The translations under genes and the position numbers were made by a program. From positions 1-48,772 of the IMG/VR virus record IMGVR_UViG_3300048834_001324: a stretch of 48,772 bases of DNA; one strand, 5' to 3'. Below the pieces are notes generated by a model. That model made no database searches. It was given only the letters and a program-made list of their open reading frames with translations, and had not been told where the DNA came from. This document shows, in pieces, positions 3,624 through 37,400 of this stretch. Every line of letters starts with the position of its first letter. The first letter of the stretch is position 1. Source of the stretch: a virus.

Positions 3624-5225
3624 ATGGCAGAAAGCGCACTCCCGAAGAAGAAGCGGGGGCGGCCTCGCAATGAAGAGCGCCTGGACATGGCGCAAGAGTA
3701 CACGTCCGGCCAGTCAGGCTCTTTTTACTCTGGCGTGTCGTCGTTCGCCGATTTGCAACGGCTGCACGGCAGCGTGGATGACATAGACATTACACTGGGA
3801 TGGGAAGCAAAGGATCGGATGGACAACGATCCGAACATTGCGGCGGCTTTGAGTACTCGCGCATTGGGCGCGACTTCGAGGTCGATTGAGGTCGTTCCGG
3901 CACCGGCGGCGCTTTTTCGTTCTGACAGTGACGAGCGCAAGGCCGATGAGGTCGCAGCGTTTATCCGCCGTTGCGTGGTGTATTTGGGTCAGTCTCATCG
4001 CGACCTGAATCTCACCGCCTATCAGCTCTTGAGGAGTGCGCTCAAGGTCGGGCATTCCAAAGCCGAGATATGCACGGATTTGGCGCATGGCGGCATAGAT
4101 AATCTGAAACGCGTTCCAATAAAAGTCAAAAGCAAAGACCGCAACAATTCTTGTTTTGTGGTGGACAGGCAAAACAATATCGTTGGGATTGCAGGTTACA
4201 CCGGAACCTATGGCAAGGACTATGGCAGTCCTTACGCCTTGCCGAGCGTGAAGATGCACGGCACGATGCCATTCGGTGCGCTAAGCGACGGATGGAAGCT
4301 GATCGACCGCTCTAAATGGTTAATCGTGACGAACCAAGCACCTGACAGCGATTCCCCGTTAGGCCAAAGCTTGCTGCGTGCGGTCTATACGGCTTATCGC
4401 AACAAGCGCGACGCATGGGTGATGTGGCTCAAGTCGCTTGACAATACCGCTCAGGGGATGGACGTTTTCGAGCTGCCCGAGCATTCTTACAATACGGACA
4501 CCTACCCGCTCGTGAATGGCGTGCCTGACACCAGCGGCGAAAAGGTGCCGATGGCGACGGCGGTTATGGACGGTCTAAAGTATGCGCGGCAGGCGGGTAT
4601 CTTTGTGCATCCTCATACCGGCAGGCATTCGAGAGTGCATTCGTCAGCCAGTGGTGATCCGTTCCTCTCGATGTTCAATTTCTGCGATTCTCAGATTGCA
4701 ATCGGTATTTTGATGCAGACATTGGCGACCGGAACCGACCGCCACATGGCGCGTGCGGCGGGGCAGGTGCATCAAGATGTATTGGATTTAGCGCACCGTC
4801 ATGACCGCGCTTTGATTGAAAACAGCATTACGCGCGATCTATTCGCGCCATTGATCAAGGCGAATTTTCCGAAAGACTACTGGCATCTTACGCCGTCGGC
4901 TTCGTTTGGTAAGGTGGAGTTACAGGATTTCGCGGCATGGGCGACGGCGCTTTCCAAGCTGGCGCAGTCGGGGCTGATACTGCCGTCACAGTTCGCGTAT
5001 ATCTGGTCTATCCTCGGGCTGCCGCAAGGCGACTTGAAGGAACTGCAAGAGCAGGTTGCGCGCGACAAAGCCGTGATCGAAGAGATTATGGAGCCGGAGA
5101 TTGACGCCATGACCGGCGAAAAGAAGCCCAGTCAGGCCGCGCGCTATATGCCGCAGGAAGTCGGCAAGCGCATGACGCGCAATGCGGGCGCACAAATCGC
5201 TTCGAGAGCGGGGAGTGAGCTGTGA
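3624..5225 (+). CDS. Portal protein, DUF935/Mu gp29-like
   Basis: The 533-residue protein forms the portal ring through which DNA enters and leaves the head. The middle has the DUF935 pattern, with DITLGWEAKDRMDNDPNIAAAL near residue 50, KWLIVTNQAPDSDSPLGQSL near residue 230 and a C-terminal region rich in QIAIGILMQTLATG and AHRHDRALIENSITRDLFAPLI. The start at ATG 3624 fits the promoter just upstream; GTG 3597 would be at or before the transcript start. The N-terminus is lysine/arginine rich and contains KKKRGRPRN, an AT-hook-like motif not normally expected in a portal. The stop codon overlaps the next start (GTGA). Confidence 0.8.
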   Translation: MAESALPKKKRGRPRNEERLDMAQEYTSGQSGSFYSGVSSFADLQRLHGSVDDIDITLGWEAKDRMDNDPNIAAALSTRALGATSRSIEVVPAPAALFRSDSDERKADEVAAFIRRCVVYLGQSHRDLNLTAYQLLRSALKVGHSKAEICTDLAHGGIDNLKRVPIKVKSKDRNNSCFVVDRQNNIVGIAGYTGTYGKDYGSPYALPSVKMHGTMPFGALSDGWKLIDRSKWLIVTNQAPDSDSPLGQSLLRAVYTAYRNKRDAWVMWLKSLDNTAQGMDVFELPEHSYNTDTYPLVNGVPDTSGEKVPMATAVMDGLKYARQAGIFVHPHTGRHSRVHSSASGDPFLSMFNFCDSQIAIGILMQTLATGTDRHMARAAGQVHQDVLDLAHRHDRALIENSITRDLFAPLIKANFPKDYWHLTPSASFGKVELQDFAAWATALSKLAQSGLILPSQFAYIWSILGLPQGDLKELQEQVARDKAVIEEIMEPEIDAMTGEKKPSQAARYMPQEVGKRMTRNAGAQIASRAGSEL

Positions 5226-5359
5226 GCAAGGCCGAGAAGATGATTCTGATGTTGATCGTGCGTTTGGCCGGTGCTATGGCGCGCGGGAATTTTGCTAAAA
5301 TACAAACCGTTGCCGCCAGTGTTGCGGACGACGCGCAAAAGATGTACGATATAAGCTGA
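5222..5359 (+). CDS. Small hypothetical protein
   Basis: This 45-residue protein (MSKAEKMILMLIVRLAGAMA at the start) begins at a GTG overlapping the portal stop codon and is preceded by GGGGAG at seven bases, so translation is probably coupled. It is amphipathic with a hydrophobic N-terminal helix. No family was recognised. It sits between portal and protease and is followed by an intrinsic terminator. Confidence 0.5.
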   Translation: MSKAEKMILMLIVRLAGAMARGNFAKIQTVAASVADDAQKMYDIS

Positions 5360-5406
5360 CAATTGAATATAACTTGGGACTGACTGCGTTTTATCGCAAG
5401 CCCATC

Positions 5407-5464
5407 GCCCGACATTTCTCGTATCGCCGCTTAGAGCGGACTGCGAAGAATGTCGGGCTTTTTT
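5407..5464 (+). terminator. Rho-independent terminator inside the head gene cluster
   Basis: GCCCGACATT (5407-5416) pairs perfectly with AATGTCGGGC (5449-5458), followed directly by TTTTTT. The long loop contains its own hairpin CCGCT-tag-AGCGG (5427-5439). It ends 15 bp before the protease/scaffold start codon, so it should reduce or attenuate transcription from portal into the capsid genes. Confidence 0.75.
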
Positions 5465-5479
5465 GTTTGGAGTTTTGGC

Positions 5480-6574
5480 ATGGAACCGAGCGAGTTTCCG
5501 ACAATACGGCGCACCGGCATCATCTTCAGACCGGGTGATTACGGAGCGAAGGGATCTTATACGGACGCCGATATCGAGGCGATGGCGGGGGATACCCCGC
5601 TGCCTATCCGTATGGGGCACCACGACACGCTTATCGAGCGTGCCAACCGCATGGGCGTATGTCACCGGACTTTCGTGGGGTTTGATGCTGCTGGGGAAAA
5701 AGTACTCATGGGCGAATGGGACGAGCCGGAGCCATTGGCTCAGCTATTAGCCGGAGTGCCTAAGACGGTTAGTGCGGAAATTGACTTGAAGACAAAGCGG
5801 CCTTTCGCTTTGGCACTTGAGGTCAATCCTCATATCGAAGGTGCCGCGTTTTTTGATGCCGTGGATCGAGCCTATGCGCAGTTCAGTAAAGGCGAGGACG
5901 TGACGCCAATCGAAGTAAAAAACAGCTTACAGGAGCAGGAAGACATGAGTACTCAGGAAACGGTATCAACAGAGCAGGCAAAGCCGTCTTTGCTGGATTC
6001 AGTGAAGGCATTTTTCAAGAGCGCGCCCGCCGAGGACGTGGCAGAGTTCGAGAGCGCGTTGGCTCAGGCCAAGACGGGCAAGACGGCGCGCGAGATTGAG
6101 TTAGAGGCGCAGGTCGCTCAGTTCGAGAAGTCCATCGAGGAAATGACTGCCGCAAAAGTGCATCAGGCCAACGAGGACGCACGGCGCGAAGCCGCCGAGT
6201 TTGCCGACGGTTTGGTGACGGATGGGCGTATCGAAGCCAAAGGCAACGATGCTTATAACACGGCGATTGCACTCTTTTCAGTCGCGCGCGAATACGACAA
6301 GAGTAAGCCAGAATTGGCGTGTTTTAGCGAAGAGTTTCGTTCCGCCGACTTTGACGCGCGTGGTGCAGTGAAAGCGGTTTACGAATCGCTGCCCAAGTTC
6401 GTCAATGGCGAGCAGGTCAGCGACCATGACCCGACCAAAGGCGCGGCTGCCATGTTTGAGCAGGAAGAGTCTACCGTCATTGACCCCGAAAGCCAGAAGG
6501 TCATTGCCTACAACAAGGAAGCAGCGGACAAGATCGTCGAGGCGAGGTTAAAAGCATCGGCTTCGCGCCCGTAA
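5480..6574 (+). CDS. Prohead protease with C-terminal scaffold, Mu gpI-like
   Basis: The 364-residue product has two parts. The N-terminal 130 residues (RRTGIIFRPGDYG, PIRMGHHDT, SAEIDL) match the general shape of Mu-type head maturation proteases, with a candidate catalytic His in the MGHHDT segment. The rest is a highly charged, coiled-coil-like scaffold (EIELEAQVAQFEKSIEEM) ending in EARLKASASRP. The start at ATG 5480 is preceded by TTTGGAG; the frame is open 30 bp further upstream, but that start would lie inside the terminator stem. It precedes decoration and major capsid genes, as in Mu-like heads. Confidence 0.7.
   Translation: MEPSEFPTIRRTGIIFRPGDYGAKGSYTDADIEAMAGDTPLPIRMGHHDTLIERANRMGVCHRTFVGFDAAGEKVLMGEWDEPEPLAQLLAGVPKTVSAEIDLKTKRPFALALEVNPHIEGAAFFDAVDRAYAQFSKGEDVTPIEVKNSLQEQEDMSTQETVSTEQAKPSLLDSVKAFFKSAPAEDVAEFESALAQAKTGKTAREIELEAQVAQFEKSIEEMTAAKVHQANEDARREAAEFADGLVTDGRIEAKGNDAYNTAIALFSVAREYDKSKPELACFSEEFRSADFDARGAVKAVYESLPKFVNGEQVSDHDPTKGAAAMFEQEESTVIDPESQKVIAYNKEAADKIVEARLKASASRP
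5945..6574 (+). CDS. Candidate nested scaffold protein (internal in-frame start)
   Basis: Inside the protease gene, ATG 5945 (MSTQETVSTEQ) is preceded by AGGAGCAGGAAG at correct spacing. It would produce a 209-residue protein equal to the C-terminal coiled-coil part. Mu (I/Z) and lambda (C/Nu3) make their scaffolds by the same in-frame nested arrangement. Translation from this start is inferred from the ribosome binding site and that precedent. Confidence 0.55.
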   Translation: MSTQETVSTEQAKPSLLDSVKAFFKSAPAEDVAEFESALAQAKTGKTAREIELEAQVAQFEKSIEEMTAAKVHQANEDARREAAEFADGLVTDGRIEAKGNDAYNTAIALFSVAREYDKSKPELACFSEEFRSADFDARGAVKAVYESLPKFVNGEQVSDHDPTKGAAAMFEQEESTVIDPESQKVIAYNKEAADKIVEARLKASASRP

Positions 6575-6608
6575 TCCGCAAAAATAAAACTACAGAGAGG
6601 ATATTCAC

Positions 6609-7475
6609 ATGACACGCACTTCCAGCACGCTAAGCCGTCAGCCTGGCATTGTAGAGCAAAGCTCCTTGCGTCACAACTCGGGGCGACAAATTGATTGGGC
6701 AAACGTCGCAGAATCGCGCCGCGAGTCTGCCGAGACCGTGAAGATCAACGGCGCAAAAGCCGCCGGTGTGACTTCGCTAACCGTGGACGCACTACCTATC
6801 GCATTGGCAAGAGATACCTTCTTGAAGTTTGGCACCTATGCGCCCGTCAATGTCACACTCAACGACGCCTCGGTAACTGCGGGGGATACTTCGATCACGG
6901 TCGCTGCACTGTCGGGGCCGCTTCCGGTTGGTGCGGTTCTCAACTTCACGGGCGGCACCAATGCCGAGGTCGCCATCGTAGCTACAGCAGCTGCTGCTGG
7001 TGCGACGACCATTGCAGTCGAGGCTTTGGATGGAACCATCACCAATACCAAAGTTGCGGCGTGGCCGGGTGGTACAATCGGCGCACGCGTTACCGCCGAT
7101 GCCGCTGCTGGCGCGACGACGCTCACGGTGGACGAGACGCAGTTCCCGATCGCTGATGACGCAGAGGCGACTTACGGCGGCACTGGCAAGAAGGCGATCA
7201 AAGCGCTCACCGTCATGGCGCAGCTTTCGAGTGGCAAGTTAATTCCTCGTGCGGACGTGACCGGCGCGGAGGTTTCGACGTGCATCATCGAAAGCGCCGC
7301 TGCCGAAGATGACACTTCAGTGTCGGGTTATGGATGCCTGACTGGTGGCGCGCTTTATGAAAACTTGCTGCCGGACGCATCGAGTGGAAGTATTTCCAGC
7401 ACCTACAAAACTGAACTGGTGGCTGCTGGGTGCAGTTTTGCCTTTGAGCAGTATGGAGACAATACCACATCGTAA
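6609..7475 (+). CDS. Putative head decoration protein
   Basis: The 288-residue product starts after a GAGAGGAT ribosome binding site and sits between scaffold and major capsid genes, the usual place of a decoration protein. Two to three similar modules of about 55 residues are visible (AGVTSLTVDALPIAL, AGDTSITVAALSGPLPVG, AGATTLTVDETQFPIADD), each an alanine/threonine-rich beta-type segment. The C-terminal 100 residues (KKAIKALTVMAQLSSGKLIPR onward) form a separate domain. No enzymatic motif is visible. Attachment to the capsid exterior is inferred from position and composition. Confidence 0.55.
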   Translation: MTRTSSTLSRQPGIVEQSSLRHNSGRQIDWANVAESRRESAETVKINGAKAAGVTSLTVDALPIALARDTFLKFGTYAPVNVTLNDASVTAGDTSITVAALSGPLPVGAVLNFTGGTNAEVAIVATAAAAGATTIAVEALDGTITNTKVAAWPGGTIGARVTADAAAGATTLTVDETQFPIADDAEATYGGTGKKAIKALTVMAQLSSGKLIPRADVTGAEVSTCIIESAAAEDDTSVSGYGCLTGGALYENLLPDASSGSISSTYKTELVAAGCSFAFEQYGDNTTS

Positions 7476-7518
7476 GACGGGGCGTGCCCCTCATAAAATC
7501 CAGTAAAAAAGGAAAGCT

Positions 7519-8640
7519 ATGCTCAATCTCAATGTTTCCAAGTTTCTCACCAACTTAGACCATCGCGAAGTACTGCGCGTGGTCAACAGCGCCCGCCCCC
7601 CGTCTTCCTACCTCTTCGCAAAGTACCTCCCCGAGCGACAAGAGGTGGACTTCGACATTCAGTCCGCAACGATTCGCGTCGTGCCAACGATGGCCGGCGT
7701 TGTTGGTATGGACTCGCCCTACCCCGAAGGCGGCGCGATCCTGAGCAGCCGCGTGACTGGCGAAATCGCTAAAATGGCGATTCAGGTTTCGCTGAACGAA
7801 CGCGACAAGCGCAAGATGTATCAAATGTTGCTGCGTTTGGGTAATGGCGCGCAAAGCACGCAATACATGGTAACGACACTGCTCAATTTTGCCGATAAGG
7901 TGCTGGGGCAATCACAACTCGACCGGCGCGAATGGTTGCGTGGACGTGCGCTCATTGACCATAGTATTGACTGGACGTTTAACAGCAAGAACGTCAAGGT
8001 GGATTATGGCATTGATTCCAAATACCGCTTGACCGCACGTACTGGCAATGATGGCTACGGCGGCTCCGCCTCGAAGTTCTGGGCGGACATTACCTCTGCC
8101 AAAAAGCTTTTGAAATACCGCGTCGCGGCTATCATCGCTCACCCTGATACGTGGGAGATGGTGCGAGCCAACAGCGTCAACAAAGCGCGCGTCATCAACC
8201 TCAACGAAGAAACCGGCGACATGGAAATCGTGCGCGTTGTGGGCACGACCGAAACCAGCGACACCGATCCCACCTATCGCGTCAAGTGCATTGCCTACGG
8301 CCTGGAAGGCTCGGTTTATGACCCCGCTAATCCCGAAGCGGTCGTCAATGTGCCTTTCATTAACCCAGGTGAAATTGTGGTGATTGGACGCGGTGTCGCG
8401 CAAGGCTTCAATGTCGGCGCGGCGGCTGTGGACGAGGGCGCAACGCCAAACGAGGTTAAGCCTTTGGGGTATCACCACATCGCGCCGACCGATGAAGGCG
8501 GCTACGCTCTGGGCGACTGGGGGCGCATCTATACGCCCGACAATGCGCCGAACAAAATCATCGGCCAGTCGGTCAGTAACAATATGCCGGTATTGGAAGC
8601 CGACAATCAGGTCGTGCGCCTCAAAACCGACATGGTGTAA
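7519..8640 (+). CDS. Major capsid protein
   Basis: The 373-residue product is probably the shell protein, with an HK97-type fold resembling the gpE class of capsid proteins. Features include an N-terminal ARPPSSYLFAKYLPERQEVDFD, an early GVVGMDSPYPEGG loop, IAAIIAHPDTWEMVRAN-like sequence in the middle and a PTYRVKCIAYGLEGSVYDPANPE stretch. It starts at ATG 7519 after AAAGGAAAGCT, follows protease/scaffold and decoration genes and precedes connector genes. The exact capsid family is less certain than the role. Confidence 0.75.
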   Translation: MLNLNVSKFLTNLDHREVLRVVNSARPPSSYLFAKYLPERQEVDFDIQSATIRVVPTMAGVVGMDSPYPEGGAILSSRVTGEIAKMAIQVSLNERDKRKMYQMLLRLGNGAQSTQYMVTTLLNFADKVLGQSQLDRREWLRGRALIDHSIDWTFNSKNVKVDYGIDSKYRLTARTGNDGYGGSASKFWADITSAKKLLKYRVAAIIAHPDTWEMVRANSVNKARVINLNEETGDMEIVRVVGTTETSDTDPTYRVKCIAYGLEGSVYDPANPEAVVNVPFINPGEIVVIGRGVAQGFNVGAAAVDEGATPNEVKPLGYHHIAPTDEGGYALGDWGRIYTPDNAPNKIIGQSVSNNMPVLEADNQVVRLKTDMV

Positions 8641-8645
8641 TCTTT

Positions 8646-9038
8646 ATGGCAGCCACCTACGACGCCTCGTCTATATCCACCAACATCGTAAGCTACGCGC
8701 GAGCGCGGTTCCGCGATGTTGGTGGATTGTCGGGCACTGTTGTCGGCAAACCTTTGATGCTTGACGAGGAGTATCAAGGGTTTGTATCGAGATTGGGTAA
8801 CGCCGAAGGCTTGGCTCAGGCCGCCGAAGCGTTAGCGGCAGGCTTTGCTCAAAAGGTTCAGCAATTCTCGGAATCAGGCGGCGTGGATGTGGTGTGGCCA
8901 CGTCGCGCTGAGTTCTACTTGGAATTGGCGCGCAACATCCGTCTTTACGGCGTGGACATGACCAATGGCGCACTGGTGGGGGCTTATGCACCCACGACAC
9001 CCATCATCGAGACCGATGAACGTTTGATGTTACTTTAG
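8646..9038 (+). CDS. Putative head-tail connector
   Basis: This 130-residue, mostly helical protein lies five bases downstream of the capsid stop codon and has no clear ribosome binding site, so its translation may be coupled. It has FVSRLGNAEGLAQAAEALAAGF and a tail ending in TDERLMLL. Position right after the capsid gene suggests an adaptor bound to the portal. No motif confirms this. Confidence 0.45.
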   Translation: MAATYDASSISTNIVSYARARFRDVGGLSGTVVGKPLMLDEEYQGFVSRLGNAEGLAQAAEALAAGFAQKVQQFSESGGVDVVWPRRAEFYLELARNIRLYGVDMTNGALVGAYAPTTPIIETDERLMLL

Positions 9039-9047
9039 GTTTGCTAA

Positions 9048-9671
9048 ATGGCTGATCTTCTGTCGCAAGATGAAATAGACGAAATCCGTGATGCCATTGC
9101 ACCGTCTACAGGCGATGAGCTGGTGTCTGTGATGGAAGTCTGGCGAATGCCGGAAGTGGCTACGCCGCCCTCGGGTGGTGCCGGTGTTAATAGCAGCGGC
9201 TTTGCAGTCGAAGAAAGTACGGATGTGACAAGGCCGGACTTAACGCGAGTGAAGGTTGCCGAATATCCGGCTCGTATTTCGCGCGCTGGCACCGGCAAAG
9301 AGGATGAGTTTGGGGGACAAGTCGTTTCTTTGAACCAGTACTCTTTGTTCTTTAACTGGGGAGACGCCCCAGATATCGAAGGCGGAGACCGCCTGTTAGA
9401 AAAGCGCGCTGTGTGGCAGGCGTCTCATGCCTACGCGCTGGGCGATGTGGTACAACCGACGGTGAGCAATGGCCGGTGCTACGTTGCCACAGACGACGGC
9501 ACAAGCGCCGGAACAGAAGCTGCGTGGCCATTAAACAAAGGCGACGTGGTGACTGACGGTGGCGTGGAATGGACTTGCACCGGAAGCCTGAAAACATATG
9601 AGGTCGTTGATTCAGGTACGGACACGACCTACAAAATAACGCGCAATGTGCGCGCCGAAGTCGTAGGGTGA
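9048..9671 (+). CDS. Putative head-tail stopper with inserted carbohydrate-binding-like domain
   Basis: The 207-residue protein has a beta-rich core (SLNQYSLFFNWGDAPDIEGGDRLL then TYEVVDSGTDTTYKITRNVRAEV) that looks like a head-closure/stopper protein. Between GGDRLL and TYEVV, where such proteins normally run on directly, it carries an insert of about 55 residues (about residues 123-177). The insert has the chitin-binding/CBM5-12-like pattern WQASHAYALGDVV, CYVATDDGTSAG and a DGGVEW end. Function is inferred from position among connector genes. The insert may be displayed at the neck and bind polysaccharide. Confidence 0.5.
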   Translation: MADLLSQDEIDEIRDAIAPSTGDELVSVMEVWRMPEVATPPSGGAGVNSSGFAVEESTDVTRPDLTRVKVAEYPARISRAGTGKEDEFGGQVVSLNQYSLFFNWGDAPDIEGGDRLLEKRAVWQASHAYALGDVVQPTVSNGRCYVATDDGTSAGTEAAWPLNKGDVVTDGGVEWTCTGSLKTYEVVDSGTDTTYKITRNVRAEVVG

Positions 9672-9678
9672 GAACGAA

Positions 9679-10215
9679 ATGCCGATTCGCTGCCAACTCG
9701 ACACTAAGGTTCAGCAGGTCAAGTCGAAGGTGCGCGCCGACGTGGAAGCACGCATGGTCATGGCCGCCGACGGCTTGCGCGCCCATGTCGCCGCCGAGTT
9801 AGACGGCGGATCGTTGCCGATCCACAGCGATACGACGGCGCTTGCCAAGTCGCTTTACGTGCAGTCCGAGACCGCGAGCGACTATGATAAAGCGCGCGGA
9901 CAAGCGAAAGTGGCGTATGTGACGAGCGCGTCGCGCTGGAGCCAAGCCGTGCGCGCCGAACTGGACGGGCGCGCCTATAGCCCCGAACACTTCGATGCGC
10001 GCTGTGCGCCCGAAGAGCCGCTCACGGCGGGGCAAGGCAGTATTAAAGCCGCCGTCGCGACCATGTTGATTTATGGACTGTGGTGGGAATATGGACACTC
10101 GAACCTTTTCACTAAGGCCGATGAACCCGCGCGTTATTGGTTTACGCCAACGGTTCATCGGTGGTGCGCCGCGTACTTGACGGGGTATTTTAGCGGCTTG
10201 CTGCAAGGCCGTTGA
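9679..10215 (+). CDS. Putative neck/tail completion protein (HK97 gp10-like)
   Basis: The 178-residue protein starts after AGGGTGAGAACGAA. A basic helical N-terminus (VQQVKSKVRADVEARMVM) is followed by the pattern YGLWWEYGHSN with an aromatic, proline-containing segment (ADEPARYWFTPTVHRW). The order, a WEYG-like motif then a later P-x-hydrophobic segment, is typical of HK97 gp10-like neck proteins. It lies between the stopper and the tail terminator candidate. Confidence 0.5.
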   Translation: MPIRCQLDTKVQQVKSKVRADVEARMVMAADGLRAHVAAELDGGSLPIHSDTTALAKSLYVQSETASDYDKARGQAKVAYVTSASRWSQAVRAELDGRAYSPEHFDARCAPEEPLTAGQGSIKAAVATMLIYGLWWEYGHSNLFTKADEPARYWFTPTVHRWCAAYLTGYFSGLLQGR

Positions 10216-10224
10216 GAATAAGGC

Positions 10225-10701
10225 ATGGCAGAGAGCGGACTTGATGCGGTGATAAAGAGTGTGCGCGCCTTTCTGGTGGCAGATGCCGCGCTTGCGTCAG
10301 TGGGCGTCGCCTATGGGCGCGCCGTGCGTGAAGAGGCGTTGCCTTATGTCGTTCTATCGGTTGCGCCTGTGGCCGCGAGTAAAGTGCTAACGGCAGCGGA
10401 TGCGATGCGGACGTATCGTGTGATGGTAAAGGTGTGTGCTGCCAACAAGGGCGGGCAAGGCGCGAATGAGATCGCCAAGCCGTTAGTGGATGCGGCTTAC
10501 ACGAGGTTCACGCGGATCGTGAGCGGCAAGACGCCGCAAGCACGATTGCAGGAGATATTGCAGCCGCTGGGGTTTGCGGCGATGGTGCCTTTGGAAGTCG
10601 GGGACATTACGCCTTACAGCGACACTGTAGGCGCAAACCGTGACATCGAGCGGTGGCATTTTGGCGCGCTGTATGACGTGAGAATTGCGCCGCTCTCTTG
10701 A
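10225..10701 (+). CDS. Putative tail terminator
   Basis: The 158-residue protein begins with helix LDAVIKSVRAFLVADAALASV and continues with alternating beta strands (PYVVLSVAPVAASKV, TYRVMVKVCA), the arrangement of tail terminator proteins that cap the tube at the head side. It is followed by the tube genes. The assignment rests on order and predicted fold pattern, not a diagnostic motif. Confidence 0.5.
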   Translation: MAESGLDAVIKSVRAFLVADAALASVGVAYGRAVREEALPYVVLSVAPVAASKVLTAADAMRTYRVMVKVCAANKGGQGANEIAKPLVDAAYTRFTRIVSGKTPQARLQEILQPLGFAAMVPLEVGDITPYSDTVGANRDIERWHFGALYDVRIAPLS

Positions 10702-10728: not shown

Positions 10729-13029
10729 ATGCCTACAGATATTGGGATAGAATCAGCGATTTTTATAGACGGAACTGATGTTACGCGAATGCTCAACAAG
10801 GTCGGCGTCGGTGATAACCTTGACGCGATAGAGACCACGCGCTTTCGCAGCGTCAACCGCGCGAAGGAGTTCATCGCGGGACTTCGCAACTCCACAATTG
10901 CGCTCACCGGATACCATCCCGCAGACATGGGAACCGAAATCACCGAGCTTTTGCAGCAAGCGATGGGCAACAAGCGCACCGGTCAGGATATTTTGATTGG
11001 TGTGGGCGGTTTGGACGTGTCCAATGTCGCAATCGCCGCCAAGAGCCTCAAAACGTCCTATCGCGCCAATGTCGTCAGCGATGCGCTTTTGGCCGCCGAA
11101 GCCGAATTTCAGGTGACCAGCGCGTCGCCAGGAATCTCGCCGTGCGTAGTGCTTTACACGCCTCACGGCAGCGGCTCCTTTGATACCAACGAAGCTCAAA
11201 GCCTCGTCTTTACCGACTGCCCCGCGTCACTGAACCTTGTGGCCTACAACTCCACAGCGGACGCGACTTCGGCGGTGTTCTATGCTTCGGACACCAACGC
11301 GACAATCAAGGCACGGCTCGAAAGCATTTACACCGGCCAAACCATCACGGTTAGCGGCTCGCTCACGACCAGCACCGATAGCGACACTAACGAAACGCTT
11401 TACAGCGGCACGCTGACGCTATCGTTTGGCACGGCGGCGGATGTGGCGCAAGTCCAAATCAAATGCGGCGAGCAGCAAAAGCTTGTCGTGGCGAGTGGCG
11501 ATGATGGCAACTACACATGGAACGCAGGCGCGAACTTTGCGATGGGCGCGACCGAAAGCGACGTGCAGACGAATCAGCGCGCTTTGGCGGGGAGCTATGC
11601 CAATGTCGTGGTGAAGGGGCAGAGCAGCGCGCCGGTGAGCGGTAGCGATTCTATTGCGACTAAGAGCGCGGTGCTGCCATCGGGCAGATATGGCTCGTCG
11701 GCGGCGTATGCCAGTAACGGCAAAATTTACGTGTTTGGCGGTGGTGACAACTCAGGGACTCCTGTCAACATGATTTATGAGTACGATCCCGTCACGGATT
11801 CCATTACTACCAAAACTGCGACGTTACCGTCGGCGCGACTCGGCACATCTGCCGTGACGGGTAGTAATGGAAAAATCTACATCTTCGGCGGATACGAGTC
11901 TGGTGGCAGTCGCGTGGCGGCGATCACAGAGTACGATCCTACGACTGACGCCACGACTGTTAAAACTGGTGCCCTTGCGTCTTCCTGTTCCGTTGCGTCT
12001 GCCGCACTTGGAAGTAACGGAAAAATTTATGTGTTTGGCGGCGACACCTCGGGGTCACGAGATAAGATTAGTGAGTACGACCCCACGGCAGACGCACTTA
12101 CAGTCAAAAGTGCGACACTGCCTGCTGGTCGGAGCAATACATCGGCGGCACTCGCCAGTAATGGCAAAATCTACGTGTTTGGCGGTGGTGACAACTCAGG
12201 GAATCCTGTCAACATGATTTATGAGTACGATCCCGTCACGGATTCCATTACTACCAAAACTGCGACGTTACCGTCGGCGCGACTCGGCACATCTGCCGTG
12301 ACGGGTAGTAATGGAAAAATCTACATCTTCGGCGGTTATTTAAGTGGCGGCACGAAAACCGATGCTATTTTGGAGTACGATCCCGTTGCGGATTCAATCA
12401 CCACTAAAAGCACCGTGATGCCTGCTGTCCGCCAAGTTTTTGGTGCGGCTATCACCAGCGCGGGCAAGGCATACATTTTTGGCGGCGATGGTGCAAGCGT
12501 ATTGGACACCATTGTCGAGTACACCCTGCCCTCTGATGGTACCCCATCCTCTGCCACCTTCAACGCCTACTTCCCCTACAGCGTTGGCAACGTCGCCGAT
12601 CCCGCAACGACCGGCACCGGCGCGACCAGCAGCACGGTCAAAACCGGCGGCAGCGACGCGGGCAGCGTGGCAGCGGAAAGCACCACGACGGCGGGTTATA
12701 GCGGTGAAGCCGTGTACAATGTCATTACTGCGACCGGAAACGGCACATCAGTGAATGACACCGGCGGCGCGACGGCCACGACAAACGGCGCGGAGTTCAT
12801 CTTGCAGGCCGTCGGCACCGGCAGCGTGACGTGCAAAATCCAACACGCGCCGGACAGCTCGGGAAGCCCTGGAACATGGGCAGACCTCACGACATTCGAT
12901 GCTATTACCGGCACCGGCTCGACGCGCAAGTCCATAGCCTCTGGCACTTCGGTTAATCCGTGGTTGCGACTGGTAGTGACGGCGGTAACTGGCAAATACG
13001 CACTGGCCGCAGCCGTGACGCGCTTGTGA
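10729..13029 (+). CDS. Tail-tube-like protein carrying a six-bladed Kelch propeller
   Basis: The 766-residue product has four parts. Residues 1-145 (ESAIFIDGTDVTRMLNKVG, IETTRFRSVNRAKEFIAGL) resemble a tube protein and parallel the gene at 13085. Residues about 146-305 form a beta-rich Thr/Ser segment. Residues about 306-605 contain six repeats of 48-50 residues with the Kelch signature, SNGKIYVFGGG followed by IYEYDPVTDSI. Residues 606-766 form an Ala/Gly/Thr-rich domain like tail Ig modules (GAEFILQAVGTGSVTC). Blades 1-2 and 4-5 are nearly identical at the DNA level. The start follows AAAGGAG. The likely role is a decorated tube subunit displaying a propeller for host or surface binding. 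Confidence 0.7.
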   Translation: MPTDIGIESAIFIDGTDVTRMLNKVGVGDNLDAIETTRFRSVNRAKEFIAGLRNSTIALTGYHPADMGTEITELLQQAMGNKRTGQDILIGVGGLDVSNVAIAAKSLKTSYRANVVSDALLAAEAEFQVTSASPGISPCVVLYTPHGSGSFDTNEAQSLVFTDCPASLNLVAYNSTADATSAVFYASDTNATIKARLESIYTGQTITVSGSLTTSTDSDTNETLYSGTLTLSFGTAADVAQVQIKCGEQQKLVVASGDDGNYTWNAGANFAMGATESDVQTNQRALAGSYANVVVKGQSSAPVSGSDSIATKSAVLPSGRYGSSAAYASNGKIYVFGGGDNSGTPVNMIYEYDPVTDSITTKTATLPSARLGTSAVTGSNGKIYIFGGYESGGSRVAAITEYDPTTDATTVKTGALASSCSVASAALGSNGKIYVFGGDTSGSRDKISEYDPTADALTVKSATLPAGRSNTSAALASNGKIYVFGGGDNSGNPVNMIYEYDPVTDSITTKTATLPSARLGTSAVTGSNGKIYIFGGYLSGGTKTDAILEYDPVADSITTKSTVMPAVRQVFGAAITSAGKAYIFGGDGASVLDTIVEYTLPSDGTPSSATFNAYFPYSVGNVADPATTGTGATSSTVKTGGSDAGSVAAESTTTAGYSGEAVYNVITATGNGTSVNDTGGATATTNGAEFILQAVGTGSVTCKIQHAPDSSGSPGTWADLTTFDAITGTGSTRKSIASGTSVNPWLRLVVTAVTGKYALAAAVTRL
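11731..11891 (+). repeat. 161-bp direct repeat, copy 1 (Kelch blades 1-2)
   Basis: This segment recurs at 12175-12335 with a single mismatch that I can find (gggact versus gggaat). The offset is 444 bp, exactly 148 codons or three propeller blades. The other blades have diverged strongly, so this pair reflects recent duplication or gene conversion. Confidence 0.9.
12175..12335 (+). repeat. 161-bp direct repeat, copy 2 (Kelch blades 4-5)
   Basis: This is the second copy of the segment at 11731-11891, in frame and encoding the same residues except one Thr-to-Asn change (SGTPVN versus SGNPVN). Immediately after the repeat the blades differ (GYESGGSRVA versus GYLSGGTKTD). Confidence 0.9.
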
Positions 13030-13084: not shown

Positions 13085-13579
13085 ATGACACCACAGATCG
13101 GAGCCGGAACAATTATCAAGATTTGCACCGCATCCACGCCGATGAGCGCTATCTCGGGCGGCAGTGGCAGCGACAGCAACCTCGTTGACCGCAGCTCGGG
13201 GTTCAAGAGCTTTAACATCACCGATTCGCTGAACACGGTTGACGTGACCACGCTCACCATCGGAGCCGCCGAGAAATGGGCGCGGCGTTTCATCAGCGGC
13301 CTTGTGAACTGGCAGATCAGCGGCGACTACATTGATTCGCCAGTAGCGGCTGATTCACTTTGGAAAATCTTCGATGCTATCCGCAATGGCACGGCTCACA
13401 CCAAAGGACGCGGCCAAGTGGACTTCCAAATCCTGTTTGGTGGCGCAGTGTCCAATAACATCAAGATTGACGGCACGATGATTGTCACGGCGGCACCGTT
13501 TAACGTCGGCATCGAGGAAGTCTTTGGTGGTAACTTCTCCGCGCAGGTCAACGGCGCGATTACCATCGGTACTCAGTAA
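13085..13579 (+). CDS. Major tail tube protein
   Basis: The 164-residue protein starts after TTTGGAG. It shows a typical tube pattern: SGFKSFNITDSLNTVDVTTL, then KWARRFISGLVNWQISGDY and a C-terminal NVGIEEVFGGNFSAQVNGAI strand pair. The segment matches the N-terminal domain of the upstream Kelch protein (TTRFRSVNRAKEFIAGLRN), so the two are probably paralogues. It directly precedes the tail assembly chaperones, the expected location of the main tube subunit. Confidence 0.65.
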   Translation: MTPQIGAGTIIKICTASTPMSAISGGSGSDSNLVDRSSGFKSFNITDSLNTVDVTTLTIGAAEKWARRFISGLVNWQISGDYIDSPVAADSLWKIFDAIRNGTAHTKGRGQVDFQILFGGAVSNNIKIDGTMIVTAAPFNVGIEEVFGGNFSAQVNGAITIGTQ

Positions 13580-13737
13580 TAGCCGCGAAGGACGGCGCGA
13601 ACGCCCCGCCGCCGTCCGACTATTTTGCCTGACGATTGGTGCTTGTGGCCATTCTGTAAGTGCAGGCTTGCAGACACCGGCTTGCCGGTGCGGGGCGATG
13701 GACGCAAGCACCAATACTCAAACAAAAGGATAGCCCC
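13580..13737. other. Structured intergenic region with cloverleaf-like repeat
   Basis: After the tube gene, GGACGGCG/CGCCGTCC forms a hairpin followed by GACTATTTT, possibly a weak terminator. Next, ATTGGTGCTTG (13635-13645) pairs perfectly with CAAGCACCAAT (13705-13715). Inside lie TGCA-ggct-TGCA and CACCGG-cttg-CCGGTG hairpins, so the element is multi-branched like the one at 3451-3515. An AAAAGGA ribosome binding site for the next gene follows. Confidence 0.5.
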
Positions 13738-14418
13738 ATGTCTTCACTGCAAGAGATTCGTTCACTGACCGCTGTTATCAAGCTGCAACTCACCGATGAA
13801 GTTTCGCTCACCCTGCGCCCATTACTGGAGCGCGTATCGCCCAAAGACAAGGTGTGGGCTAAGCTCGAAAAAGCGGAGCAGGACGCCAAAACCGAAGGCC
13901 AGCGTTTATTGCAAGAGTTGGAGTCCGTCTTGCAGAACGTAGGCCAACTGGCCGTGCCCAACTCGGAGCGGCTGCAAGCGTTTCGCCAAACCATCGCTGA
14001 TAGCTTGGTGTCTCTGGGCGAACAGTTGGACACCGAAAATCCTGATGTTATCGAGCTTCGCCGTGGCGTAGTAGGCGCGTTGGCGGAACTGGAAAAGTTC
14101 ACCGGCGAGATATTGCCGAGCGAAGAGGAGCGCGCAGCAAAGGAGTCTGAGGCGCGCCTGAGAGCCGAAGAGTTGAGCAATCAGCTTTTGGCAGTCAATG
14201 CGAAGTTAGAAACCATTCGCAACGACAAGTTGGCGCACCTGCTCGACCATGCGGATGGGTGGGATTTGACCGATGATGACAAGCCGTTAAAGGTCACGCG
14301 CGCTAACATCGAAGCGTTGCCAATCGCGGGACTGCCACAACGGATGTATGACGAGTGTATTGACAAGGTTCAGAATTTTTTAGCGCCGAGGAGTACTGGG
14401 AGTTCGTCGCATGGATGA
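13738..14418 (+). CDS. Tail assembly chaperone, short form (gpG-like)
   Basis: The 226-residue protein starts at ATG 13738 after AAAAGGATAGCCCC. It is helical and acidic (LQEIRSLTAVIKLQL, LLERVSPKDKVWAKLEKAEQD, ELSNQLLAVNAKLETIRNDKL). In long-tailed phages two overlapping chaperone products lie between the tube and tape measure genes and coat the tape measure during assembly. A slippery heptamer near its 3' end allows a share of ribosomes to move into the next frame. Confidence 0.75.
   Translation: MSSLQEIRSLTAVIKLQLTDEVSLTLRPLLERVSPKDKVWAKLEKAEQDAKTEGQRLLQELESVLQNVGQLAVPNSERLQAFRQTIADSLVSLGEQLDTENPDVIELRRGVVGALAELEKFTGEILPSEEERAAKESEARLRAEELSNQLLAVNAKLETIRNDKLAHLLDHADGWDLTDDDKPLKVTRANIEALPIAGLPQRMYDECIDKVQNFLAPRSTGSSSHG
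14376..14382 (+). promoter_or_regulatory. Programmed -1 frameshift site T TTT TTA
   Basis: The codons AAT TTT TTA form a canonical X XXY YYZ heptamer in the zero frame. A -1 slip after TTA continues as AGC GCC GAG GAG TAC, giving SAEEYWEFVAWMIYEGELN without a stop into the downstream reading frame. The zero frame ends 36 bp later at TGA 14416. Lambda and many other tails use -1 slippage here to make gpG and gpGT. Confidence 0.85.
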
Positions 14419-14726
14419 TTTACGAGGGTGAACTAAACCCTGCGGTGTTTGGGCCAAAACTCCGCGCGAGAAACGAAAAGGCAAACGGGAATAAATTCAG
14501 CAATCCGGTTCAAGGCGCAAGTGATGTGTCGCTGATGAAGCGCGTTGCGGAGTATTGGTGCGGTGGTGACTGCGAGAAAGCGGAGCGTTTGCATTACGAG
14601 CGCCCCGCTTTGTTCTACCGAGTACTTACCATCGCGTGTGCGCAGTCCGAAGCGGAATCAAACCCTGAAAGACAGTCCTACGTAGAGGCGAAGGCCAAAG
14701 AGAAAGCGCGAAGAAATAGCAAGTAG
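14382..14726 (+). CDS. Tail assembly chaperone extension (T part of the G-T fusion)
   Basis: This reading frame is expressed by frameshifting at 14376-14382, giving a fusion of 215 + 114 = 329 residues. An ATG at 14415 (MIYEGELNP) could also start it but has no ribosome binding site, and the frame reads sensibly upstream of it (YWEFVAW). The extension is basic (GPKLRARNEKANGNKFSNP, EAKAKEKARRNSK), as expected for the part that binds the tube subunit or tape measure. The tape measure gene follows 15 bp later. Confidence 0.75.
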   Translation, partial: SAEEYWEFVAWMIYEGELNPAVFGPKLRARNEKANGNKFSNPVQGASDVSLMKRVAEYWCGGDCEKAERLHYERPALFYRVLTIACAQSEAESNPERQSYVEAKAKEKARRNSK

Positions 14727-26978: not shown

Positions 26979-28724
26979 ATGGCGACATTGAACGAAAAAT
27001 TACCGGTTCCGGGGCAAGGCGCAGGCAACAATTTGGTTGTGGGGAATGCGCTCCAGTATCTCGACCAAATGGCGAATGCGACGCAAGATTTCTCACTTGC
27101 GTCAGGGGACGCCACCGTCAACGATACCGAAACCACCAGCAACACCGCGCACTATGGAAAGTGGCGCACGACTGGCACGCTAACAGCCAATCGTGAGCTT
27201 ATCGCGCCGTCTCGTAAGTGGCGAAGATGGATCGAAAACGCTTGCAGTGGAGCCTATACCGTCAAGGTCGTTTTAGTAGCAGCAGGCGCAGGCGTGGAGG
27301 TCTCCGCTGGAACGACGGTGCTACTGGAATGCGACGGGACGGCAATCACGCAAATCGCCGTAGGTTCTACCACCAACCCGCTTGCGTTGGCCGACATAAC
27401 CGAGCCGTCACCTTCGACCAACAAACTCTACAGCGTGGCTACCGGCGTCTTAAAATGGGCGGGGAAGCGCATCGCTTTAATCGCCAGCACGCTGAGCAAT
27501 TCGCAAGTCGTGGAGACTGACAGTAGTGGGTACTTGGTGAGCGCGGCAAAAGGCACGGCCTACAACAAAGCATTCGGCACGGGGAGCGGTGATGTGTGCG
27601 AAGGCAATGATTCCCGATTGAGCGATTCTCGAACGCCTTCTGCTCACGCCAGTAGTCACGAAAACGGCGGCGCTGACGAAATCGCGCTCGACGCTTCTCA
27701 GGTCACGACCGGTGTTTTTAACATCGCACGATTGGCGACGGGCACGCCGGACGGCACGAAATTCATACGCGATGACGGATCACTTGTCACGCCATCGGGC
27801 GGCAGCGGAACGCTTGACGGATTATCCGATGTCGTCATCACTTCGCCCACTACGGGGCAGGTCGTGAAATACAACGGCACCAATTGGGTTAATGACGCCG
27901 ACGCAACCGGCGGCGGCTCAGGTGTAACGTCAGTGTCAGGAACTGCGCCTATCGTCAGTAGCGGCGGCACGACACCAGCAATCAGCATCAGCGCGGCAAC
28001 GACCAGCGACGCGGGGTCTATGAGCGCATCTGATAAGACTAAGCTCGACGGTGCCACTGACGCGGCTACGGCCTCTAAGCTAATGATCCGTGATGCCTCT
28101 GGCCGCGTTAAAGTCGCCGACGGCAGCGCGTCCGGCGATTGTGTCAACAAGGGGCAACTTGACCTTAAAGCGCCTTTGGCATCGCCTACTTTCACCGGAA
28201 CTGTTACTGTGCCAACGCCCAGTAATAGCACCGATGCGGCGACAAAGGGTTACGTGGACGGCATCGGCATTGGCGGGTATGACTACATCCAACTGCGCGA
28301 CGAAAAAAGCAGCGGCACTAATGGCGGCACTTTCACCTCGGGCAGTTGGCAAACCCGCACGCTCAACACCGAAACGCAAGACACCGGCAACGACTGTTCG
28401 CTTTCGTCCAACCAGTTCACGCTCGGCGCTGGGACGTATGAAGTTGAGGCATGGGCAGGTGGCAACAAAGTGAGTGCGCATCAGTTGCGCATCCAAAACA
28501 TCACCGATGGCACTACGGTCATCGTCGGTCAAACGATTTTGGCATCGGACGCCAACGGCGTATTCAATACCGCATCGCTAAGAGGCCGCTTTACTATCGC
28601 TTCAAGCAAGGCATTTGAGTTGCAACACCGCTGCGGAACAACTCGAAGCACGAACGGCTTCGGTAGTGCGAGTAGTTGGGGCACTGAGGTTTATGCTGAG
28701 GTCGTGCTAAGAAAGGTGGCCTAA
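26979..28724 (+). CDS. Tail fibre / receptor-binding protein
   Basis: The 581-residue protein has a fibre layout. The N-terminal part probably attaches to the tail tip. The middle has fibre repeats (TGQVVKYNGTNWVND, GVTSVSGTAPIVSSGGTTPA, ASPTFTGTVTVPTP, STDAATKGYVDG). The C-terminal 140 residues (SWQTRTLNTETQDTGNDCSL, GTYEVEAWAGGNKV, FELQHRCGT, VYAEVVLRKV) resemble a C1q/TNF-like jelly-roll tip. It is the last rightward gene and its end overlaps the convergent nuclease gene by 18 bp. Specificity cannot be predicted. Confidence 0.75.
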   Translation: MATLNEKLPVPGQGAGNNLVVGNALQYLDQMANATQDFSLASGDATVNDTETTSNTAHYGKWRTTGTLTANRELIAPSRKWRRWIENACSGAYTVKVVLVAAGAGVEVSAGTTVLLECDGTAITQIAVGSTTNPLALADITEPSPSTNKLYSVATGVLKWAGKRIALIASTLSNSQVVETDSSGYLVSAAKGTAYNKAFGTGSGDVCEGNDSRLSDSRTPSAHASSHENGGADEIALDASQVTTGVFNIARLATGTPDGTKFIRDDGSLVTPSGGSGTLDGLSDVVITSPTTGQVVKYNGTNWVNDADATGGGSGVTSVSGTAPIVSSGGTTPAISISAATTSDAGSMSASDKTKLDGATDAATASKLMIRDASGRVKVADGSASGDCVNKGQLDLKAPLASPTFTGTVTVPTPSNSTDAATKGYVDGIGIGGYDYIQLRDEKSSGTNGGTFTSGSWQTRTLNTETQDTGNDCSLSSNQFTLGAGTYEVEAWAGGNKVSAHQLRIQNITDGTTVIVGQTILASDANGVFNTASLRGRFTIASSKAFELQHRCGTTRSTNGFGSASSWGTEVYAEVVLRKVA

Positions 28725-29042
28725 TGTGATAGGCACCATCATCGCCTCTCTCACCGTCGCGTGCGCCCGTCCATCGCGCACCATGTCCGTAGTGAAACGC
28801 AAGACACGCCAGCCCAGCAGTGCCGCCGTGTTGTATTTGATGCAGTCGCTCTCATAGTGCTTGCCACGACTATGAGCACCCTTGACCCAAGTGCCGCCCT
28901 CGACCTCGACCGCAAGCATCCGATCCGGCCACGCAAAATCAAAGCGCCACTTTCGTGTTTCGTGGAAGCGATATTCACGCTCGGGCAACGGCAAGCGCTG
29001 CTGCCTGAGTTGCAATAATAGTAAATCCTCAAGCGCGCTCAC
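28707..29042 (-). CDS. DUF559-like endonuclease
   Basis: The 111-residue protein has the small PD-(D/E)XK-type pattern RKWRFDFAWPDRMLAVEVEG, with catalytic candidates Asp in FDF and Glu in VEVEGG. It continues ESDCIKYNTAALLGWRVLRF and MVRDG. Such stand-alone nucleases are common in phages. It could act in DNA processing or as a free-standing homing nuclease. It starts inside the end of the upstream coiled-coil gene and is the last gene of the leftward unit. Confidence 0.7.
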   Translation of the reverse strand: MSALEDLLLLQLRQQRLPLPEREYRFHETRKWRFDFAWPDRMLAVEVEGGTWVKGAHSRGKHYESDCIKYNTAALLGWRVLRFTTDMVRDGRAHATVREAMMVPITLGHLS

Positions 29043-34324: not shown

Positions 34325-34451
34325 CCTCAACCTCCTTGTATTTTGCCTGTAGCGCGCTTCTTTTGGCTTTTGCGCCCAAACCCTTAGCCGCCGGATTCTC
34401 GCGGCTTGTAGGTGGCATTGCGCGCAAATCAGGCGGTATTACCAACGGCAT
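34197..34451 (-). CDS. Small overlapping hypothetical protein
   Basis: The 84-residue frame starts at an ATG overlapping the helicase stop (TGATG), so it is likely coupled. The first 50 residues (MPLVIPPDLRAMPPTSRENP, AKAKRSALQAKYKEVEDVDK) look genuine. The last part, rich in Gly/Ala/Arg, overlaps the next gene by 128 bp and may be just frame-open sequence. No family was recognised. Confidence 0.4.
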   Translation of the reverse strand: MPLVIPPDLRAMPPTSRENPAAKGLGAKAKRSALQAKYKEVEDVDKSRAEDNEPSQDIRAGRRVGLRAGAGGGTSGFAVGLGDG

Positions 34452-37400
34452 CACCAGCGCTTATTCGCGCTGATGTAGTCGCTGGCTTGTTGAAACGTCA
34501 TATTTCTCGCTGCTTCGGGTGTGACGCCCAGTTTGCGGCACATCAAATCTCGTTGAGCGTAAGAGGCTTTCCCGGCTTCACGGTCTTTCATCAGTTGCCC
34601 GATAATCCCCATCGCCGCCTTCTTGGTTAGGCCGTCTGTCTTGACTTTGCCCTTTGTCATTTTCTCGATGAGTGTGGCCTGCGCATCCGTGCACGGCTCG
34701 CCGGTGATGCTCATCGCCATCGGCGTAGTGTTCAGTAGCTGTGCGCAAAGCGGATCGTATTCGGTCACTTCGTACCGGAACCGCTCTTCGCGGTTTTTGC
34801 GCCGTCGCGCTTCCTGCTGCGCGGCCTTACGTGCTTCGATCTCTAACCGCACGCGCTCCTTCTCGCGCTCCTCTTCGACCGCGAGGCGCGCCTTTTCCAG
34901 TACTGTGGTTAAGTCGGCGTCAGGGTCGTTGTCTAAAATATCTTGCGCTGCGCCAAACAGCGCCTCGGCGTCCTCTTCGGTTTCGTCAGCGAGTTTTTCG
35001 GCCAGTAAGTCCGCGCCGCCAACCAACGGCAAACCCGATGTGATGTAGGAAAAACTCAGTATCAAGCAATCGGTTTTTCCAGTCTCGGGCGAGGGGCGTG
35101 TGCCGCGCCCGACGCATTGACGGTATAGGTTTATGCTTTGCGTTGGGCGCGCCATGACCACGCATTCGATCGGTGGGCAGTCGAAGCCCTCAGTGCATTT
35201 CATGCAGTTCACAAGAACCTGAAATTCGCCGTTTTCGAGGGCGTTGTATATTTTTTCCGGCTCTTTGGTTTCACCAGATACGGTCATCGCCTTAATGCCC
35301 ATGTCGTTAAGCGCCGCGCTCAGTGCGGTCGCCGATGCCACCAGTGGCGTAAAAACGATAGTGCGCCGCGCGCCGATGTTTTCCTTGATCGCGGTCGCCA
35401 AACGGTTGGTGTTTTGGTAGATAACGGCGTCTAATTCGCTTGCCACGAAATCACCATCACTGCCAAACACGCGCCCCACCATGCGCAGGTCAATGTTGGT
35501 TTTGACCTGCTTGAACTTCAACGGGCAGAGCGCGCCCATCTCGATTGCTTGTATCAATGTCAACGGCTCCAATGTCTCATGCCAACCGGCAAGATACATA
35601 TATTTTGGCTTGGAGCCTTTTTTCTTGACCGTGACACCAGGTGTTGCCGTGACGCCTAAACGCTGTGCGGTATTGAACCAGCGCAGCACTTTCGCCCAAT
35701 GGTTGCCTTTGCCCTCGAAATTGATGTGATGGCAATTATGAACTAACCATCCATCGGCAAAATAGTTGTGGTTTCCTTCGACTTCGATGTTGTAGACAAA
35801 ACCGTCTGGACACACCCGCTCAAATTCCGATTGACTTCCGAGTTCCAGAACCTCAACACTTTCCACCCGCGCGAAGTCAAAAACGCTGTTTTGCGTGCGT
35901 CCTGCTCTTTCCCTAACAGCGTCTTGTGCGATGCGCCGTCCACTTCCACTGCGATTTTTAAAGACAGGTTGGCAACGTCTATTTTGTAGCAAGTCGGTAA
36001 GCCGGAAGTGTCGCCTTTTCGGATGCCAGTTTTTACAACCACTTCCATTGGCCACCCCAACGCCTCGGCCAATTTCTGTTGTGCTTGGGTTGTTTGTCCG
36101 TTGCCGCCGCGTACTTTCGGTTTCCACGCAATCGCCTTCATTGCCGCGCGTTGCTTGTGATAGTACTCCGGCTTCTGCATTGGATTGTTTTTCGTCATGC
36201 GCTCCGAAGCATGAGTGCGATTTGTGCGTGCCATCGTTTCGGACTTGATGCGCGTCATACGAATAACTTTGCACGTTTCCGAGCAATAAGCTACTCCCCG
36301 CCGCGCATTTTGCCTTTGGCTTGGGGATAAGATCGGAACCGTAGTGCCACAAGTACTGCAAGGCATTTCCGATGGCGTTGTGCGCTTTGCACTGATTTGT
36401 TTTGGCGCAGGTCGTATCTTTTTGCGTGCATCCCTTCTGACTGCCTTGCAAGCCTCCGAGCAAATAGGTGTTTGCCCAACCGTCCAACTTCGCGGCCTGT
36501 AAGAACTCCCGCACACGACGCAAGATTTTAGAGGCACCAGTTCCTTTTTGCGGAACGGTTTTCGTTTGCGGCACTTGTCGCAGATCATCAGCCCGAACTT
36601 CCACGCCTTCTGATATTCCGCTTGGCAGTTGGTGCAAACAAAGGTTTTGAGAGGGTGTTTCATGCATCATATTGTAACACAAAATATCATTGGGCGAAAT
36701 ATACTCAATGTGTCCATTTTGCATTACAGCGAACGGATGCTCCGGTGTGCAAACAATGCTTTTCCCGTTATTGAATCTCACGCGAACAAGTTGCTTTGCA
36801 GGGTTTTTGTACAGGCGTGCAACGCGGCGCTTCTCAACCTTTTTGGTGCTGTGATTGTAGGATTTTACGAAGTCGCCAACCTTGATAGTTTCTATCGGTT
36901 TGCCATCCACAGGTGTGCCTGCGGGAAAACATTCATCAGAAATAATCAGGTCAAACGAATCGCGCGGCCAGAGCTGAACGCGGTCGCGGTGGAGCGATTG
37001 CACCGATGCCACCACGATCGGTTTGGTCTCGCTAAAATGCGGCAAGGCACGCAAATCGCCCTGCTCGATGAGCGGCACCACGCCGACTTTTTGCATTTTC
37101 TCATCGGCTTGCCGTAGTAAGTCTTTACGATGCACCAGCACTAAAACCCGCTTGCCCATCTGTGCGAAGATTTTCGCAATGGCGTTAAACGTGATCGTCT
37201 TGCCCGTGCCAGTGGGCAGCACTAACCGGCAAGAGCGCACGCCGTCATGCACGAAAAGATTGAGAATGTCCGAAATGGCTTGCGATTGGTAATCATGGAA
37301 CGTTATCACGTCGTCAATAATCATCTCGGGATGGTAGCGCGCTACAGCCTCTTCGCCAACGGGCAAATCGAAAATATCCGGCTCGTCATCAATCGGCGGC

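Follow-up and report, generated by a model that had tools for sequence, protein, structure and literature searches.

A siphovirus major tail protein with a predicted six-bladed Kelch propeller between its two domains

A major tail protein of a siphovirus carries a Kelch propeller as part of a large insertion between its two conserved domains. The protein is encoded by an open reading frame (ORF 10729-13029) in virus record IMGVR_UViG_3300048834_001324, one metagenome contig whose 48,772 bases were analysed as a whole and are referred to as the window. An N-terminal tail-tube domain is followed by the insert and then by a C-terminal domain, and this architecture is well supported. The Kelch-tube fusion is real in the sequence and unusual, and it is well explained if a known major tail protein of two domains has received an insert. 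The family of that protein corresponds to PHROG 9522 (241 positions) and is named MTP1 here. An earlier note, made from the DNA letters alone, had described a tail-tube protein with a Kelch propeller beside a simple tube paralogue as an unusual combination, and profiles, AlphaFold2 (AF2) and synteny agree with that description. The order of tube domain, Kelch repeats and C-terminal region given in the note also stands, but the note had left unseparated a region of ~177 amino acids (aa) between tube domain and propeller, called region X here. It appears probable that the MTP1 tube domain places many copies of the propeller on the tail surface, where they would make avid contacts of low affinity with the host and aid adsorption.

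The tail-gene neighbourhood

The plus strand of the window carries a siphovirus structural cassette that runs from the terminase through gene-transfer-agent-like tip genes (Table 1). The major tail protein of siphophages is encoded between the tail-completion gene and the tape measure, and ORF 10729-13029 sits at this position. The ORF is intact, with an ATG start and a ribosome-binding-like AAAGGAG upstream. The order of tail completion, MTP1, a second tube protein (MTP2), two small ORFs and tape measure matches that of the MTP1 family, the two small ORFs being assigned as chaperones by position only. The tape measure protein is more than twice as long as that of lambda, and a tail of ~300 nm would therefore be expected.

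Table 1. Features of the structural cassette and of the MTP1 gene in the window
Feature	Position	Strand	Basis or remark
Head genes: terminase, portal (Portal_Mu), head maturation protease, major capsid protein E, neck genes		+	
Tail completion / terminator gene	10225..10701	+	PF11367 Tail_completion_gp17, E 2.6e-6
MTP1 (major tail protein) with Kelch insert, whole gene	10729..13029	+	766 aa
Tail-tube domain, residues 1-131	10729..11121	+	MTP1 tube profile over 8-131; phrog_9522; AF2/Foldseek
Inserted region X, residues 132-308	11122..11652	+	no significant profile/PDB match; low-confidence beta strands (model)
Inserted six-bladed Kelch propeller, residues 309-603	11653..12537	+	Pfam, repeat spacing, AF2, Foldseek
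Near-identical tract copy 1, blades 1-2	11710..11891	+	3 differences/182 nt compared with copy 444 nt downstream
Near-identical tract copy 2, blades 4-5	12154..12335	+	444 nt, or exactly three blades, after copy 1
Thr/Ser/Gly/Ala-rich linker that ends the insert, residues 604-664	12538..12720	+	sequence; GC3 0.78
C-terminal MTP1 domain, residues 665-766	12721..13026	+	MTP1 C-domain profile; cement-protein / galactose-binding-like by family
MTP2, naked tail-tube paralogue, 164 aa	13085..13579	+	phrog_10528 E 1.9e-3; phrog_1407 E 9e-4 (major tail protein)
ORF, tail-assembly-chaperone position	13660..14418	+	position, with a weak match to phrog_393 (tail assembly chaperone; E 0.12)
Second ORF, chaperone position	14415..14726	+	position only
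Tape measure protein, 1988 aa	14742..20708	+	PF10145 E 2.4e-32; phrog_991 E 2.6e-65
Tip genes, gene-transfer-agent-like: DUF2460, phiJL001 Gp84, Rcc01698			

Other genes drew attention in their own right. A small neck-region protein (9048-9671, plus strand) has a head-decoration match in its C-terminal half (phrog_20658, 6.7e-12), and other loci have matches to it too. On the minus strand, a helicase (ResIII/Helicase_C, 34451-37486) has an apparent intein in its ATPase at about residues 203-584 (Intein_splicing, 4.3e-12), and the gene at 28707-29042 strongly matches the uncharacterised PHROG phrog_503 (E 5e-35). Among the other loci, Tetraselmis viridis virus S20 (L015) has sialyltransferase and glycosyltransferase genes, according to its annotation, between its capsid and neck/tail genes (5016-10599).

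The conserved domains of MTP1

The tail-tube domain was recognised by several profiles. An MTP1 tube profile built without the window sequence matched residues 8-131 at 40.9 bits, where the best of 2,000 shuffled sequences reached 11.1, and positions 9-124 of the phrog_9522 profile matched residues 8-128 (E 2.3e-6). A wider tail-tube profile of 57 proteins, which started from three seeds outside the window and was iterated over loci fetched via the tail hub, scored residues 1-140 at 16.6-20.8 bits (shuffled maximum 7.5-9.6). An AF2 model of the first 140 residues, with 38 further sequences aligned, reached a modest confidence (pLDDT 60.6). Almost all of its Foldseek matches were tail tube or related tail/baseplate proteins, including those of phage 812, AFP, PVC, monocin, lambda gpV, a gene transfer agent and roseophage R4C, and only the top match had an E below 1e-3. 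These results uphold the N-terminal tube-like domain that had been read from the sequence.

The C-terminus had been read as Ig-like, and this part of the earlier description was not confirmed. No Ig family was matched by the C-terminus in the profile searches. It is the second of the two domains conserved in the MTP1 family and is not evidently Ig-like. An MTP1 C-domain profile, again built without the window sequence, matched residues 665-762 at 35.2 bits (shuffled maximum 9.9), and positions 139-234 of the phrog_9522 profile matched the C-terminus at E 3.2e-5. What does this domain resemble? Positions 137-233 of the MTP1 family profile match PDB entry 3j4u_H, a 'cementing protein' (E 2.1e-7), and a NedA-like galactose-binding model was matched by 10 of 15 MTP1 members and an F5/8 type C model by 8 of the 15, with weak scores. 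Residues 665-766 of the 766-aa protein alone gave no direct match to 3j4u or to F5/8-type models, so the likeness to cement and galactose-binding proteins holds by family only. A tblastn search with this domain alone found nothing in phages. As a separate observation, the second MTP1 domain (e.g. L221:5986-6690) links tail-tube decoration to a virion decoration protein through its profile match to 3j4u, a phage cementing protein of solved structure.

One PHROG, 9522, annotated 'major tail protein', matched both ends of the 766-aa protein, and it was matched by all MTP1 members scanned (15/15). A scan with degenerate patterns led to nine virus loci, two of which (L221 and L222) encode a 234-aa protein in which the two domains adjoin, and the last scan gave 45 loci with MTP1. 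The distinct full-length relatives (n=31) are 233-255 aa long; as to exceptions, L235 is cut by the contig end and L270 has ~250 aa when read from a later start. MTP1 is also present in sixteen GenBank phage records, with spans of 687-732 nt. At 766 aa, the window protein lies outside this family length, at which the two domains are adjacent, and it is a variant by insertion rather than a case of failed homology. MTP1 profiles split into their two parts matched nothing significant between residues 131 and 665. Because the profiles match only residues 8-131 and 665-762, ~533 residues are inserted between the two MTP1 domains, and this insert consists of region X, the propeller and the linker.

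None of the other MTP1 proteins found has a large insert. None of 30 related virus records had a Kelch match, and a Kelch motif scan of IMG/VR gave 63 stretches, in which no Kelch gene resembled one for a tube protein upstream of a tape measure gene, as judged by ORF lengths, neighbours and N-terminal sequences rather than by a tube-profile search. Similar fusions, for which the earlier note had proposed a search, were thus seen in neither set. The first profile search of genome contigs found no relative, PHROG 9522 had no convincing member in 50 virus records and 49 genomes with a related tail hub, and exact peptide patterns detected no close relatives of the whole protein, the portal or the hub in IMG/VR. 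None of the papers searched describes a tail-tube protein with a Kelch propeller, which does not prove that there is none.

MTP2 had also been noticed earlier, as a simple tube paralogue at 13085, and its PHROG matches (Table 1) are joined by a score of 14.9 bits on the wider tail-tube profile in later rounds (shuffled maximum 8.4). A tblastn search with MTP2 found nothing in phages. MTP1 is followed by MTP2 in 42 of 42 IMG/VR loci checked, in the same order as in the window; the frame had to be read by eye in three of these loci, in the case of L244 via its near-identity to L243. In L221, for example, the order is terminator, MTP1, MTP2 (137 aa, naked), a small ORF and the tape measure region. 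In Arthrobacter phages Salgado and Ottawa both proteins bear the annotation 'major tail protein', and in Microcystis phage Mae-JY09 only the second does. No structure of an MTP1/MTP2 arrangement was found, and one may ask how a single tail accommodates both tube proteins.

The inserted Kelch propeller

Kelch propellers are protein-interaction wheels best known from cellular proteins. In the 766-aa protein, Kelch families of Pfam were matched with high significance (PF24681 E 2.9e-38, PF13415 2.9e-31, PF01344 2.9e-29). Five repeats scored above the curated cut-off one by one, and the sixth was recognised by eye. Six GK[IA]Y[VI]FGG motifs, likewise identified by eye, lie at residues 331, 381, 431, 479, 529 and 579, with a spacing of 48-50. 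Ahead of the first repeat, the segment DSIATKSAVLPSGR looks like the final strand of such a blade and would supply the strand that closes the six-blade ring. AF2 run without alignment on the full-length protein gave any confidence only at residues ~322-602, and Foldseek matched this part to crystal structures of six-bladed Kelch proteins, namely KLHL12, KLHL20 and the designed SAKe6 (E down to 1.3e-13; target TM up to 0.77 against six-bladed Kelch structures). Structure prediction thus yields a propeller and Pfam agrees, as the six Kelch blades counted in the earlier note had led one to expect. Searches of Pfam, NCBIfam, PHROGs and PDB with region X gave nothing significant.

Column counts over the repeats showed that the strands are near constant and that the loop after FGG is the most variable part. 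This loop is ligand-facing in Keap1-type propellers. Variable inter-strand loops on invariant strands are as expected of a binding scaffold. The near-identical tracts of Table 1 differ from each other at three nucleotides that lead to one amino-acid change, and most other blade pairs have 48-67% DNA identity. To judge from the letters, the tracts would be the product of a recent sequence exchange or duplication, in register. Tandem Repeats Finder reported nothing, the copies being too diverged. GC3 is 0.55 in the Kelch segment, compared with 0.64 in the tube domain, 0.73 in region X, 0.78 in the linker and 0.70 in the C-terminal domain, and the lower value of the Kelch segment relative to the rest of the gene is consistent with its acquisition.

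Possible roles of the propeller

How might a propeller on a tube protein be used? In the model favoured here, MTP1 would be the major tail protein, with its two domains, of a siphovirus whose tube proteins form a tandem MTP1/MTP2 pair, and its tube domain would be built into the tail tube together with MTP2 rings or among them. The insert and the C-terminal domain would project from the outer tube wall, at the site where other siphophages show Ig-like or carbohydrate-binding decorations. Multiple propeller copies would then engage a host-surface molecule, each weakly but together with avidity, and so assist adsorption, with primary recognition left to the products of separate tip and fibre genes (26979 and those beside it). 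The tube domain and the gene order suggest display on the tail surface, and a host-binding role is suggested by the tail protein extensions of 936 phages, which bind host cells (PMC6669499). Binding of a glycan or protein along the tail is plausible by likeness to this lactococcal extension. The propeller (residues 309-603) has no His and no Trp, which weakens, but does not exclude, a lectin role.

An alternative that is possible but doubtful concerns the number of propellers. MTP1 might form a minor specialised ring, e.g. by the terminator or the tip, with ~six propellers per virion and with MTP2 as the main tube protein. MTP2 is naked, small and always present, and the extra domains sit on MTP1, which speaks for this alternative. 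However, MTP1 is annotated as a major tail protein in cultured Arthrobacter phages, by similarity only. MTP2 could form most of the tube.

It is unlikely that the propeller is structural and not adhesive, serving to brace neighbouring tube rings or to space the tail surface for stability or flexibility. The resemblance of the MTP1 family C-domain to a phage cementing protein and the missing Trp and His would suit this role, as would the Ig-like domains of tail-tube proteins (TTPs), which are without a settled function (PMC9022992). However, relatives with the same MTP1/MTP2 pair manage without a propeller, and variation is concentrated in the inter-strand loops and not in the strands. An elaboration of the adhesive model, in which the propeller-studded tube is a renewable adhesin whose binding loops are reshuffled by exchange between blades three apart (the 182-nt tract of blades 1-2 and 4-5) while the ring is kept, is rather improbable.

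The fusion itself could in principle be an assembly artefact in which a Kelch gene of bacterial origin was stitched into the tail gene. The single metagenome contig, the want of a close relative, the shift in composition of the Kelch segment and the near-identical internal repeats would all be compatible with this, and 182-nt tracts of this kind could mislead an assembler. However, the block is flanked by both MTP1 halves in the right order and frame, no stop codon interrupts the ORF, the blades number the canonical six and synteny is intact, so that an artefact is very improbable. That the propeller is an enzyme for sugars of the host surface, of the galactose-oxidase or the sialate-mutarotase type, is scarcely credible, although it would account for the profile matches to NANM/YjhT mutarotase and galactose-oxidase models: the mutarotase matches arise from the shared repeat and stay far under the NCBIfam cut-offs (60.9 of 256 bits), and the propeller, with zero His, has no galactose-oxidase copper site, which largely refutes galactose oxidase and the AA5 copper oxidases.

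Comparison with known systems

Tail-tube decorations are common and their purpose is unsettled. A propeller of ~300 aa between the two domains of a tube protein that has insert-free relatives suggests that a very large insertion can be accommodated by the tube at one defined site, and a comparison of Kelch-bearing with insert-free MTP1 would cleanly test what such decorations are for. The closest known counterparts are phages Salgado (gp64/gp65), Ottawa (gp39/gp40) and Mae-JY09, which have the same tandem tube pair (PHROG 9522/10528) before the chaperone and tape measure genes. Their MTP1 has the same tube and C-terminal domains as the 766-aa protein; however, it is about 230-250 aa long and lacks the propeller and region X.

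Kelch proteins are also found in phage particles or among structural genes, as in the jumbo phages CBB of Pectobacterium (CBB_552) and EL and Noxifer of Pseudomonas, and in a structural protein of phiERICV. These are separate proteins or fibre-region genes, and none was found fused to a tail-tube domain. Phage CBB has a whisker-covered tail and a Kelch virion protein, and its authors were unable to assign the whiskers to any gene (PMC5259590).

Accessory domains are carried on the tube surface by lambda gpV, T5 pb6, SPP1 gp17.1* and YSD1, the last as an internal insertion, and Ig-like folds are the common peripheral domains, with unclear function (PMC9022992). Whereas these decorated TTPs carry small Ig/FN3 folds, the protein described here has a far larger propeller. 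In lactococcal 936 phages, a major tail protein (MTP) with the TpeX extension binds host cells specifically (PMC6669499), and the two systems share a large non-tube extension on a tail-tube protein. However, TpeX is a C-terminal BppA-type carbohydrate-binding module added via a programmed frameshift, whereas the Kelch propeller lies in frame between the MTP domains.
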